From Thioalkalivibrio sp. ALE14 (GTDB lineage Bacteria; Pseudomonadota; Gammaproteobacteria; Ectothiorhodospirales; Ectothiorhodospiraceae): a stretch of DNA of 64,000 bases. A model generated the notes under the pieces. It had not been told where the DNA came from and did not search any database. It saw only the letters and a program-made list of their open reading frames with translations. Below, one piece after another: positions 10,275 to 60,593 of the stretch; within the stretch, counting starts at the first letter, position 1, and every line of letters starts with the position of its first letter. Both the position numbers and the translations under genes were made by a program. The stretch lies in assembly GCF_000376845.1 (NCBI RefSeq), contig NZ_AQXY01000031.1, forward strand, positions 124,001-188,000, written 5' to 3'.

Positions 10275-11531
10275 TCAGAGGAAGTCGAACAGGGACAGTC
10301 GATTGACCTGGGTATAGGTCTGCTGCGCGGCCTGCAACGCCACCTGCTGCTGGTTGAAGCGGCTGATCGCCTCGGCATAATCCAGGTCGCGGATCTCGGA
10401 GACCGCACTGTTCAGGTCCACCAGGCGGTCCTCGTTCAGATCCTTTTGCTGGTCAAAGCTCTTCAGGCGCGAACCGACCTCGGCCCGGATGTCGCTGAAG
10501 TTGCCCAGCACGGCATCCAGATCGGCCAGCGCGGTGTTGCTGGCCGTCGCCAGGTTGGCCCGGCTATTGCCGCTGGCGCCACCCTCTTCCAGGGCCGCAA
10601 TGATCGCGTCCAGGGTCTCGAACACGCTCTTGTTTTCGGCGGCGCGGGACAAGACCTGATCCCCCACCTGAGGTGTGCCACTCAGGGTGATACTCCGCCC
10701 CTCAAAAAGGACGGATTCACCGGCCACAAAAGGCCGATCTTCCATCGGAGTCCCGGAATCGTCTTCGGCGAACTGGGTATCTCCATTCTCGTCCTCATAG
10801 GTGACGGAAAACTGGACGTTCCCGTCGGCGTCCTCAGAGAATTCAATAGTGTAGTCGCGCTCATCCAGCCCACCAACGTCGCTTACGCCGGTTTGCTCCA
10901 CAACAAGGGTACTGCCCGGTTCCCGATTGAGCACCTCGGCCCCGACACGCCCGTCATTCTCCGGGATGTCCATGAACACCCGGGCGCCGGTGTCGCCCAC
11001 CGGGATCTTCCGGTTGGGCGAGACGGCAACCTCGCGGATGCTGCCCGTGCCTTCCGCCCCCTCGTAGCGCACCGCACCCGTGCCATCCTGCTGGAAGGGC
11101 TGCTGCAACGACTTCGTACCGGCGAAGAGGTATTCGCCGTTCGGGTCCTTGGTGTTCGCGATGTCGAACATCCCGTCACGCAGCTGACGCAGCTCGCCGG
11201 CGATATAACTGCGGGTCTCGTTGGTCTGGCTGTCGTTGTTGCCGGCTACCACCAGTTCGCGCGCACGCTGCAGCAGGTCGGTCCCGCCCTGCAGGGCCGA
11301 TTCTTCTTGTTGCAGGCGTGGCTGGGTGTTGTCGATGTTGCGCTGGTATTGCTTGGTCGCCTGGATAATGCGCTCGAACTGATTGACCTGGGTGGCACCG
11401 CTCGGGTCATCCGATGGCGACAGGATGCGCTCCCCCCGGCCCATCTGCAGCGAGGTCCGGTTCAGCTCGGTCTGCCCGCGCTGGATCTGGTCGATCCCGC
11501 TCTGGAAGATCTGGGTGGTCGAGATGCGCAT
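10275..11531 (-). CDS. flgL: Flagellar hook-filament junction protein FlgL (HAP3)
   Basis: A 418-residue junction protein between hook and filament, exported by the flagellar type III system. The N-terminus (MRISTTQIFQSGIDQIQRGQ) and the C-terminus (LDYAEAISRFNQQQVALQAA then SLFDFL) are the conserved flagellin-like helical regions that form the D0/D1 core. The middle (about residues 190-285, bases 10680-10965) is a variable surface domain and is visibly more A/T-rich than the ends. It starts 21 bases after the flgK stop and is presumably co-transcribed with it. Confidence 0.93.
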   Translation of the reverse strand: MRISTTQIFQSGIDQIQRGQTELNRTSLQMGRGERILSPSDDPSGATQVNQFERIIQATKQYQRNIDNTQPRLQQEESALQGGTDLLQRARELVVAGNNDSQTNETRSYIAGELRQLRDGMFDIANTKDPNGEYLFAGTKSLQQPFQQDGTGAVRYEGAEGTGSIREVAVSPNRKIPVGDTGARVFMDIPENDGRVGAEVLNREPGSTLVVEQTGVSDVGGLDERDYTIEFSEDADGNVQFSVTYEDENGDTQFAEDDSGTPMEDRPFVAGESVLFEGRSITLSGTPQVGDQVLSRAAENKSVFETLDAIIAALEEGGASGNSRANLATASNTALADLDAVLGNFSDIRAEVGSRLKSFDQQKDLNEDRLVDLNSAVSEIRDLDYAEAISRFNQQQVALQAAQQTYTQVNRLSLFDFL

Positions 11532-35507: not shown

Positions 35508-36218
35508 TCAGAGCGACCCCGGCCCGCCGCTCCGGGCCCGCCGAGCGCGCATGAGCTGCACAACCCAGCGGGCCAGAAGCGGAAACACCCCCGTGGCGAC
35601 CAGAGACAGGACCAGGACCGGCGACAGAATCCCGTCCAGCCCCTGCAACTGGCCTAGCTGCGTACCCGCGTTCGCGAAAACGACCGTCGCTGGCAGCATC
35701 CCCAGCAGCGACACCCAGAAATAGGTCCAGGTCCGGATCGGCAACAGCCCCATCCCCGCGTTTACCAGCAGGAACGGGAAGACCGGGATCATGCGCAACG
35801 CGAAGAGATAGAACGCACCCTCGCGGACAAAGCCTTCGTTAATCCGCCCCATCTGCCGCCCGTAATGACGCTGAACGGCATCGCGCGCCAGCGCCCGGGC
35901 CACCAGGAAGGTCAGGGTTGCACCCAGCGTGGAGGCCAGTGAAGACAGCAAGGTCCCCCAGACCACTCCGAACAGGGCCCCGCCCGCCAGGGTCATCACC
36001 ACAATGCCCGGCACGGAGAACGCGGCCACCGCCGCGTACAGCAGAAAGAACAGCATGGCGGTGACCAGTGGCCTCGCTTGCCGCCACTCATCCACCTGCT
36101 CGCGGCCTGCGATCAGGCGCTCGACGTCCAGTCCCGGCCCCACGCCCGCCAGCAGCCAGGCGCCGACAAGACCCGCCAGTGCCAGCAGCAGCCCCCAGTA
36201 ATAGCGGTTCAAATCCAT
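35508..36218 (-). CDS. TVP38/TMEM64 (SNARE-associated/DedA-like) membrane protein
   Basis: A 236-residue inner-membrane protein with about five to six hydrophobic segments. The family-like core is PGIVVMTLAGGALFGVVWGT followed by GATLTFLVARALARD and FALRMIPVFPFLLVNAGMGL. Related DedA-superfamily proteins are implicated in lipid (for example undecaprenyl phosphate) translocation, but its substrate is not shown. I start at the ATG giving MDLNRYYWGLL; the open frame extends upstream antisense to srkA and is spurious there. It diverges from srkA with only 54 bases between starts. Confidence 0.85.
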   Translation of the reverse strand: MDLNRYYWGLLLALAGLVGAWLLAGVGPGLDVERLIAGREQVDEWRQARPLVTAMLFFLLYAAVAAFSVPGIVVMTLAGGALFGVVWGTLLSSLASTLGATLTFLVARALARDAVQRHYGRQMGRINEGFVREGAFYLFALRMIPVFPFLLVNAGMGLLPIRTWTYFWVSLLGMLPATVVFANAGTQLGQLQGLDGILSPVLVLSLVATGVFPLLARWVVQLMRARRARSGGPGSL

Positions 36219-42362: not shown

Positions 42363-42447
42363 CCCGTAGGAGCCTGCTCGCAGGCGAAGCCCCTGCCCAC
42401 GTCCGACTTTGGCAGGGGCATTCGCCTGCAAGCAGGCTCCTACCGGG
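42363..42447. repeat. REP palindrome between sdhB and sdhE
   Basis: A long imperfect palindrome: CCCGTAGGAGCCTGCTCGCA at one end and the complementary GCAAGCAGGCTCCTACCGGG at the other, with an inner CCCCTGCC...GGCAGGGG pair. The GTAGGAGCCTGC...GCAGGC outer arms are the type seen in many gammaproteobacterial REP elements. It overlaps the spurious upstream extension of sdhE. Confidence 0.8.
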
Positions 42448-42475
42448 GTGGAACAACCTTTGGGGGTCGCGCCGA

Positions 42476-43177
42476 TCACAGCGATTTCTTCAGCATCGTG
42501 CGGCGGATATCACTGATCGCCCGGCTCGGGTTCAGGCCCTTCGGGCACACCTGGGTGCAGTTCATGATGGTGTGGCAGCGGTAAAGCTTCCAGGCATCAT
42601 CCAGCTGTGTCAGACGATGCTCCGTGGCCTCGTCGCGGCTGTCCTGGATAAAGCGCGCGGCCTGCAGCAAGGCCGCCGGGCCCAGAAACTTGTCCGGGTT
42701 CCACCAGTAGGACGGGCAGGCCGCGGAGCAGCAGCCGCAAAGGATGCACTCGTACAGGCCATCCAGTTGCTCACGATCCTCCGGGCTCTGCTTGCGCTCG
42801 ACCTCGGGCTCGGGGCTGTCGTTGACCAGCCAGGGCTCGGCCTTGCGGTACTGCTCCCAGAAGTTGTCCATGTCCACGATCAGATCGCGGATTACCGGCA
42901 TGCCCGGGAACGGCCGCAGCGTCACGGGTGCATCCAGGTCCGCCAGCGGGGTGATGCACGCCAGGCCATTGGTGCCGTTGATGTTCATGCCGTCGGAGCC
43001 GCAGACCCCGTGCTGGCAGGAGCGACGAAAGCCCAGTGAGTCATCCTGCTCCTTCAACAGCAACAGCGCATCCAGCAGCATCATCCCCGGCTCGACCTGG
43101 TCGTCGGGCAGGGTAAAGCGCTGCATCTTCGGCAGCGTGTCCGTCTCCGGGTTGAAGCGGTAGATCGAGAACTCCAT
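42476..43177 (-). CDS. sdhB: Succinate dehydrogenase iron-sulfur subunit
   Basis: 233 residues. Cluster motifs are complete: CQHGVCGSDGMNINGTNGLAC ligands of the 2Fe-2S cluster in the N-terminal ferredoxin domain, and CILCGCCSAACPSYWW with CHTIMNCTQVCPKGLNP for the 4Fe-4S and 3Fe-4S clusters. Carries electrons from SdhA to ubiquinone. It is separated from sdhA by a DksA-like gene, an unusual insertion in the operon, and is followed by sdhE. Confidence 0.97.
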   Translation of the reverse strand: MEFSIYRFNPETDTLPKMQRFTLPDDQVEPGMMLLDALLLLKEQDDSLGFRRSCQHGVCGSDGMNINGTNGLACITPLADLDAPVTLRPFPGMPVIRDLIVDMDNFWEQYRKAEPWLVNDSPEPEVERKQSPEDREQLDGLYECILCGCCSAACPSYWWNPDKFLGPAALLQAARFIQDSRDEATEHRLTQLDDAWKLYRCHTIMNCTQVCPKGLNPSRAISDIRRTMLKKSL

Positions 43178-43233
43178 CCGTATCTCCTGTCGGCGACCGC
43201 GGCCGCCTTGTCACACGCGTCGATAAGCTCCAA

Positions 43234-43596
43234 TCAACCCTGTTCCTGCGCCTCGGCACAGGCAATGCAGCGCTCGGCCGACGGGTCGACCTCCAGCCGC
43301 GATTTCGCGATGGGTTCCAGGCAGTCGATGCACAGGCCACCCTCGCCCTCCTCCAGCCGCTTCAGCGCCCTCCGCGCACGGGCTCGCTGCGCCTCGCGAC
43401 GCTGCTGGCTCGCCTTGGCCATTGCCTAACCCTGCAGCGCATCCATCCTCGAGAGCCGCCCGGTACGCTGCTGGTCCAGCTCCACGGTCGCACCGCCGTC
43501 GGCGCCGCCTTCCAGCGCGGCATCCAGCTCCGTCACCAGTGCCTCCAGCCGTTCGCGCAGCCACGCCTCGGGTACGGGTTCGGTGGGGTTGCTCAT
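43234..43596 (-). pseudogene. TraR/DksA-family zinc-finger gene interrupted by an in-frame amber codon
   Basis: A DksA-like protein of about 120 codons interrupted by TAG at 43426-43428. Upstream of the stop: ELDQQRTGRLSRMDALQG. Downstream in the same frame, after one codon: MAKASQQRREAQRARARRAL, then the zinc finger CIDCLEPIAK...CIAC. Normal relatives read RLSRMDALQ(x)QAMA across this point, so a CAG to TAG change would explain it. The first part begins at ATG 43596 (MSNPTEPVPEAW) and the second could reinitiate at the ATG three bases after the stop. It lies between sdhA and sdhB. It may be a recent null or a two-piece gene. Confidence 0.8.
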
Positions 43597-43654
43597 TGCT
43601 CGTCTCCCATTGGGCACAATGCCCATGGTTGAACGCGCGAGCTGCCATGCCCCC

Positions 43655-43685
43655 TGATGCGATTCGCTGCGCTCATCGGCATCCT
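43655..43685. repeat. 31-base direct repeat, copy 1
   Basis: Begins TGATGCGATTCGCTGCGCTC and is repeated without change at 43768-43798. On the opposite strand it reads as the GTAGGATGCCGATGAGCGCA-type sequence common in interspersed proteobacterial repeats. It lies in the gap between the DksA-like gene and sdhA. Confidence 0.75.
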
Positions 43686-43715
43686 GCGGCCTGTATTGAC
43701 GCACCGCTGTCGTAG

Positions 43716-43742
43716 GGTGCGTTGACCATCGCGAAACGCACC
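43716..43742. repeat. GGTGCGTT / AACGCACC inverted repeat
   Basis: Arms GGTGCGTT (43716-43723) and AACGCACC (43735-43742), part of the widespread TAGGGTGCGTT...AACGCACC interspersed repeat. It sits between the two 31-base direct repeats, suggesting a composite extragenic repeat cluster in 43597-43828. Confidence 0.65.
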
Positions 43743-43767
43743 GATCCCGGTGGGACCACCCACCTCG

Positions 43768-43798
43768 TGATGCGATTCGCTGCGCTCATCGGCATCCT
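43768..43798. repeat. 31-base direct repeat, copy 2
   Basis: Identical to 43655-43685. Together with the GGTGCGTT hairpin it fills most of the spacer between sdhA and the DksA-like gene. Confidence 0.75.
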
Positions 43799-43828
43799 AC
43801 GATCCTTCCCTGCAGTCGCCTCGAGCCA

Positions 43829-45604
43829 TCAATAGACGCGTTCCTTCGGGGGGAACGAGGCCACGGTGTTCGGCTGCGTCCGCACCGGCTTGTAGTCGAG
43901 GCTGTCGTCCGCCAGCGAGTACAGGCTGTGCTTGAGCCAGTGCTGGTCGTCCCGCTCGGGAAAGTCGATCCGCGAGTGCGCCCCGCGGCTCTCCTCGCGC
44001 CCCAGCGCGGAGCGGATCGTCGCGATCGCGCAGTCCATCAGGTTCTCCAGCTCCATCGCCTCCACCCGCGCGGTGTTGAAGGTGCTGGAGTGGTCCCCGA
44101 TCACGGCATGATCGAGCCGCTCGCGCAGGGCGCGGACCTTCTCCACCCCCTCGCGCATCACCTCGTCGGTGCGGAATACCGAACAGTGGTCCTCCATCAC
44201 CTTGCGCAGTTCGCGCTTGAGCGGCTCGATCTGCTCGGCCGAGCCATCGCCCGGATCCTTGCGGTCCCAGCGCGTGAGCCGGGCCATCGCCTGTTCCACG
44301 GCCGACTCGTCCAGCGGCCGGTGGTAACGGTTCTCGGCCAGGTACTCGAGGATGTGATTGGCCGCCGCGCGCCCGAACACCAGGATGTCCAGCAGGGAAT
44401 TGCCGCCCAGGCGATTGGCCCCGTGCACCGAGACACAGGCCGTCTCGCCGGCCGCGTACAGCCCGGGGACCGGGTCCTCCGGCGTGTCCTTCTCCGGCGC
44501 CACCACCTGCCCGAAGCGATTGGTCGGGATGCCACCCATGCTGTAGTGGCAGGGGGGGAAGATCGGGATCGGCGCCTCGATCGGATCGACCCCGAGAAAG
44601 GTCATGCTCGTCTCGCGAATGCCCGGCAGGCGCTGCATGATCGTATCGGCCCCGAGATGGCGCAGGTCCAGCAGCACGTGGTCCGCATTGCGCCCGCAGC
44701 CGCGCCCCTCGCGCACCTCGGTAGCGATGGACCGGCTGACCACGTCGCGCGAGGCCAGGTCCTTCGCCCGCGGGGCGTAGCGCTCCATGAAACGCTCGCC
44801 CTCGGAGTTGATCAGGAACCCACCCTCGCCGCGGGCACCCTCGGTAATCAGCATCCCGCGCCCGGCGATGCCGGTCGGGTGGAACTGCACGAACTCCATG
44901 TCCTCCAGCGGCACCCCGGCGCGCAGGGCCATCGCCATGCCGTCACCGGTGTTGATCAGGGCATTGGTGGTGGTGCGGAACAGCTGCCCCGCCCCGCCCG
45001 TCGCGATCAGCGTGGTCTTGGCCTCGATGACGATGGGCTCGCCGGTCAGGATCTCGAACGCCAGTACGCCGAGCACATAGCCCTGCGCGTCGCGCAGCAG
45101 GTCCACCGCAAAGTACTCGTCGAAGAAGTGCGTTCGCGCACGCAGATTCTGCTGGTACAGCGAGTGCAGGATGGCGTGGCCGGTGCGGTCGGCCGCGGCA
45201 CAGGTGCGCGCGGCCTGATCCTGGCCGAAATTCTGGCTCTGCCCGCCGAACGCCCGCTGGTAGATGTTGCCATTGTCCAGGCGCGAGAACGGCACGCCGA
45301 AGTGGTCCAGCTCGTAGACGACCTTGGGTGCCGCACGACACATGTACTCGATCGCGTCCTGGTCGCCCAGATAGTCCGAACCCTTCACGGTATCGAACAT
45401 GTGCCAGTGCCAGGAGTCCGGCAGCACGTTGGCCAGCGCGGCGTTCACCCCGCCCTGCGCCGCCACCGTGTGCGAGCGCGTGGGGAAAACCTTGGACACC
45501 ACCGCGACCTGGGCATCGCCGTTGGACAGCTGCAGGGCCGCGCGCAGGCCGGCGCCACCGGCCCCGATGATCAGGGCGTCGAACTTGCGTCGCGCCACGT
45601 TCAT
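43829..45604 (-). CDS. sdhA: Succinate dehydrogenase flavoprotein subunit
   Basis: 591 residues, the normal size. FAD-binding [11 protein letters not shown] near the N-terminus, [14 protein letters not shown] with the histidine that covalently binds FAD, the active-site HPTGI and the [16 protein letters not shown]-like substrate region ([18 protein letters not shown]), and [20 protein letters not shown]. It oxidises succinate to fumarate and feeds complex II. Ten bases separate it from sdhD upstream. Confidence 0.98.
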
Positions 45605-60580: not shown

Positions 60581-60593
60581 TCCACCCCTCCGG

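Follow-up and report, generated by a model that had tools for sequence, protein, structure and literature searches.

A clade-specific DksA-like gene in the sdh operon of Thioalkalivibrio sp. ALE14 carries an in-frame amber codon, probably a recent null allele

Between sdhA and sdhB of Thioalkalivibrio sp. ALE14 lies a gene of the TraR/DksA type that is divided by one in-frame TAG, and the question is whether such a gene is dead, read through, or translated as two chains. The window is the whole stretch of DNA that was analysed, 64,000 nucleotides in length. A sequence-only reading had reported an amber codon inside this gene, and the stop, its frame and its place were all found again as described (Table 1). 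Read on the minus strand, the gene starts with ATG at 43596, continues through GGT (43431-43429), TAG (43428-43426), GCA and a second ATG from 43422, and closes at a TGA (43236-43234). The gene order on this strand is sdhC, sdhD, sdhA, the DksA-like gene and sdhB. Each of the four sdh names is backed by at least one NCBIfam model over its cut-off, and SdhA has a 94% match to Thioalkalivibrio sp. ALJ3.

Table 1. Coordinates in the window of the DksA-like gene, its parts and its neighbours.
Feature	Positions	Strand	Remarks
TraR/DksA-type gene, one in-frame stop	43234..43596	-	120 codons + final stop if read through
In-frame TAG	43426..43428	-	CAG in three same-genus orthologues; preceding GGT is GGC there
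N-terminal open piece	43426..43596	-	56 codons + TAG; predicted to span helix 1 and the tip loop and to stop after ten residues of helix 2
C-terminal open piece	43234..43422	-	62 aa; predicted to hold the C4 zinc finger and what is left of helix 2; background-level Shine-Dalgarno score
sdhB	42476..43177	-	NCBIfam model over cut-off
sdhA	43829..45604	-	NCBIfam model over cut-off
REP-like repeat copy 1	43650..43688	.	Spacer upstream of TraR/DksA-type gene
REP-like repeat copy 2	43763..43801	.	92% identical to copy 1

The two halves share one frame, and both are family-like, as had been proposed: by tblastn they are 88-90% identical to orthologues in three genomes of the same genus (G002, G009 and G011), far beyond chance, which rules out a pair of chance open frames. 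All three orthologues are intact open frames, 89-91% identical to the read-through protein; in G009 a flagged TGA precedes the start codon and the gene is intact. They run on past the site of the stop, and the refuting case that the sequence-only reading had named, orthologues all ending there, did not occur. Where the window reads GGT TAG GCA ATG, the three relatives read GGC CAG GC[AC] ATG, which bears out the suggested change from CAG to TAG.

The codon had been placed at the conserved RLSRMDALQ(x)Q position, with an ATG three bases on, and the wider family agrees with this. Glutamine stands at the stop position in 15/15 other rows of an alignment (A1) of 16 rows; the window row was entered with Q by choice, hence 15 independent rows. 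It also stands there in 32/32 other class-wide loci read (29 by motif, 3 by eye), with G038, G050 and G055 common to both sets. The family aligned in A1 is widespread and DksA-like, with the signature LDQ...GRLSRMDA[LM]QxQ, and was present in 65 of the 369 class genomes searched (E 1e-20 or better, up to 12 candidates scored per genome). Five of the class matches carry a stop; that of the window alone is internal, and the other four lie at the C-terminal end. The codon itself was read in 32 of the 64 other class genomes, and in the remaining 32 the search flagged no stop. A split conserved across the family is thereby ruled out, no other of the 65 class genomes having a split gene. Judged by these alignments, the stop probably arose when codon 57 changed from CAG to TAG on the branch that leads to the window genome.

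We assign the protein to the TraR/DksA superfamily because its C4 zinc finger is over the PF01258 cut-off (24.9 bits; read-through protein 34.3, C-terminal piece 36.4) and because the predicted fold is a coiled coil plus finger. The N-terminal half alone matched no family in Pfam, and its membership comes through the orthologues. The four zinc-finger cysteines are invariant in 16/16 sequences of A1. In the AlphaFold2 prediction for the read-through protein (mean pLDDT 82, and 52-61 around the tip, blocks 31-50), helices at 10-40 and 47-82 precede the zinc-finger end. On this model the stop, at residue 57, falls just past the first ten residues of the coiled coil's second helix and parts the tip from the zinc finger. 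Among solved structures, the best match to the model is DksA2 (4ijj_B, Z 12.6 over 117 residues) and the second best is DksA (1tjl_A, Z 11.8 over 118). As helical bundles can commonly give Z values below about 13, the sequence match weighs more. The family sequence profile matches DksA of E. coli with E 2.6e-12 and DksA2 of P. aeruginosa with E 1.1e-12, and the TraR chains in the PDB with E 7.2e-4 and 8.9e-4. The equivalog cut-offs for DksA are missed (TIGR02420, 32.0 of 115.5 bits; NF033459, 37.9 of 105 bits), and the C-terminal piece misses that for TraR (TIGR02419, 33.9 of 59.7 bits, with model positions 10-64 matched). The pattern DxxDxA, located at the tip of the coiled coil in DksA and N-terminally in TraR, is absent from all 16 sequences of A1, anywhere in the sequence.

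The position between sdhA and sdhB had been called unusual in itself, and it proved to be specific to one clade. A DksA-like gene occupies this spacer in 4/27 genus genomes. If the count begins at the last sense codon of sdhA, the spacer is 529-654 nt long in these four, and the spacers of the other 23/27 measure 2-384 nt. Three of the 30 genus loci were left out of this count: L143 and L145 as distant paralogues with 35-38% identity, and L144 for want of an sdhA or sdhB match. Among the best 80 further loci of a longer list, mostly titled Gammaproteobacteria, the spacer is 2-214 nt in 78/80 and so too short for the gene; L038 and L086 have no sdhB match. Neither sdhA nor sdhB was found within the flanks of 32 other class loci of the family (29 with about 1.5 kb of flank, 3 with about 150 bases). 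We suggest that the spacer between sdhA and sdhB gained a gene of the TraR/DksA family in a single Thioalkalivibrio clade, whether the gene came from elsewhere or originated there. The analysis brings to notice a clade-specific, constrained DksA-like gene in an sdh operon. The spacer holds other elements as well. REP-like repeats occur in several of the 15 genus spacers read, with two upstream of the DksA-like gene in the window, and L122 and L126 (G022 and G026) carry an insert of about 300 bases that resembles a MITE, with inverted ends by eye. A search of 42400-43900 for a consensus promoter or terminator found none, an uninformative result.

How long the gene has carried its stop can be approached through the changes private to the window when compared with the three relatives. 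These amount to 17 synonymous codons (a private silent change in 17 of 119 window codons), 4 amino-acid codons and the stop. As synonymous changes so outnumber amino-acid changes, we conclude that constraint on the gene lasted into the very recent past. G002 has 15 synonymous and 5 amino-acid private changes and is no different from the window (Fisher p 0.72). If the whole branch had been unconstrained, so few amino-acid changes would be expected with a probability of about 8e-8, and with a background w of 0.1 no more than about 0.13 of the branch can have been unconstrained (95% bound); the halves taken singly give looser bounds of 0.22 and 0.26. The C-terminal half alone has 8 synonymous and 2 amino-acid private codons. 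These counts are consistent with a stop too young for decay to show. Two readings fit them: a very young stop, or two pieces that both remain important.

Could the codon be decoded as an amino acid? Glutamine tRNAs can misread UAG at a low level, and a suppressor or near-cognate tRNA that filled the codon would allow some full-length protein to be made. We regard such read-through as very improbable. None of the 43 tRNAs found in the genome of the window has a CUA anticodon (RNA family search, re-read with ARAGORN), although the list is incomplete, Ile-GAU and Ala-UGC being absent from it. Release factor RF1 is intact (548 bits, over cut-off) and PylS is under cut-off in this genome (19 of 178 bits), which rejects pyrrolysine or another recoded amber. 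A degenerate second tRNA-Gln was considered as a suppressor and rejected, as its anticodon is UUG and its T arm is broken, and tandem copies occur in at least G004, G026 and G029. A tandem pair of tRNA-Gln(UUG), the first with a broken T arm, was seen at L186:1285-1358 and 1501-1575 (G000 contig 13).

TAG also behaves as an ordinary stop in the window, where it ends 9 of the 49 genes whose end agrees with the G011 orthologue, 8 of these 9 having TAG in G011 too. These 49 belong to 56 genes kept by a third-position filter, and the other seven were flagged: 43240 (the DksA-like gene), 60585 (a deletion), 11221, 36587, 35593, 2530 and 7182. Those at 11221, 36587 and 35593 look like chance frames, and some relatives also have stops at 11221 and 36587. 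The frame at 35593-35808 (+), of 72 codons, is about 72% identical in three relatives and has an in-frame TAG in the window alone; it is a candidate gene only.

A further reading is that of a working two-chain protein, in which termination at the TAG and reinitiation at the ATG would yield a helix-1 fragment and a TraR-sized zinc-finger chain of 62 residues, acting jointly or the second alone. An ATG does come straight after the stop, and reinitiation near stops in prokaryotes has been called frequent and strongly dependent on a motif of the Shine-Dalgarno type (PMC5972666, section 19). The C-terminal piece is of the size and order of TraR, a helix and then a C4 finger, as excerpts of PMC6970531 describe it, and it covers the matched positions of TIGR02419 given above. 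The Shine-Dalgarno pairing at the restart ATG is at background, at -3.3 kcal/mol against a mean of -3.4 at 109 internal ATGs, of which 41% are at least as good; it is nearly the same (-3.0 to -3.1) at this ATG in the intact relatives, and the gene's own start has -7.3 kcal/mol. Since 3/12 presumed real starts (-0.4, -1.5 and -3.1) do not outscore the restart ATG, initiation there is compatible with a weak Shine-Dalgarno, and some of the C-terminal piece may be made. Nothing suggests that the restart site has been shaped for reinitiation, and RNA structure at the stop does not go beyond that of shuffles (z 0.42). The undecayed C-terminal half speaks for two useful chains, but its low change count is also predicted by the youth of the stop. 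The piece moreover lacks DxxDxA, which excerpts of PMC9239242 give as required for TraR function, and the split is unshared among the 65 genomes. Taken together, we consider a working two-chain protein decidedly unlikely. Less probable still is a stronger version, in which a single nonsense change would have produced, by stop and restart, a TraR-sized zinc-finger chain and a helix-tip fragment, both with a continuing effect on RNA polymerase or on the expression of sdh; this would capture one way in which long DksA-type proteins could give rise to short TraR-type ones. A two-chain reading, if true, would show how a DksA-like protein can turn into a TraR-like one in a single step.

We favor a recent nonsense (null) allele of the clade-specific DksA-like gene, with a probability of roughly 0.6, an ordinary event seen here in a window that represents one strain of its species. 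This reading follows from constraint that held until recently, from the lack of a suppressor tRNA, and from a stop that no relative read shares. Of the three outcomes that the sequence-only reading had offered, a null allele, a suppressed stop and a two-chain protein, the first is thus the best, and the other two gained no positive support. In the proposed course of events, CAG would have become TAG at codon 57 very recently in the lineage of the window genome; translation would now end after 56 residues, leaving a helix-1-plus-tip fragment devoid of the zinc finger; any production of the 62-residue second half would be low and would depend on reinitiation; and the function of the gene would probably be lost. 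Against a null allele it can be said that no decay has followed the stop, so that nothing but its presumed young age distinguishes the allele from a split gene that is still useful, and that the weak Shine-Dalgarno leaves restart possible. If the gene is a plain null allele, the two open frames should not be annotated as two genes.

The change itself consists of two adjacent C to T changes (GGCCAG to GGTTAG), on the CC of a CCAGG present in the three relatives. In E. coli, CCAGG, a Dcm-type sequence, is a hotspot for amber mutations. A single gene for a C5 cytosine methylase was found, and by analogy we would guess that the stop originated by deamination at this site. Either a tandem change, or deamination of a methylated C together with an independent silent change, would do.

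The next-best explanation after a recent null allele is a sequencing or assembly error, under which the genome would truly read CAG and the gene would be intact. The assembly is a draft of 31 contigs, and apart from the stop neither half shows damage. The difference from the three relatives extends over two neighbouring bases, which goes beyond a single miscall, yet the first may be independent, given the frequency of private silent codons. The window has a second broken gene, a GGDEF-EAL gene at 60585..about 63190 (+), in which one base is missing after 62824 in comparison with G002, G009 and G011, breaking the frame within the EAL part. Its GGDEF domain model is over cut-off and its EAL part is recognized by below-cut-off matches only; the deletion could reflect either another null allele or a fault of the assembly. 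Its presence in the same window counts for an error at the amber codon and against the null allele. We consider an error unlikely.

The closest known proteins are DksA of E. coli and DksA2 of P. aeruginosa, which the DksA-like protein resembles in predicted fold, sequence profile and its four cysteines, whereas it has 120 aa, falls far under the DksA model cut-offs and has no DxxDxA; according to excerpts of PMC9239242, the matching aspartates are essential in DksA. TraR of the F plasmid and its phage homologues are like the C-terminal piece in size and layout, but the piece is under the TIGR02419 cut-off and is likewise devoid of the pattern. Nearer in length are the intermediate-length homologues RSP0166 and SMc00049, which we liken by description to the protein of the window; they too have no DxxDxA, and according to the same excerpts these two do not work in the manner of DksA or TraR. 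In R. sphaeroides, FnrL targets RSP0166 (excerpt of PMC2908626), and CrpK binds it too (excerpt of PMC4263372). As an allele, the gene can be set beside the nonsense pseudogenes of bacteria. It differs from them in that there is as yet no decay beyond the stop and in that a start codon happens to come next, and it is like them in that one stop interrupts a frame with no other damage, while the gene is intact in relatives.
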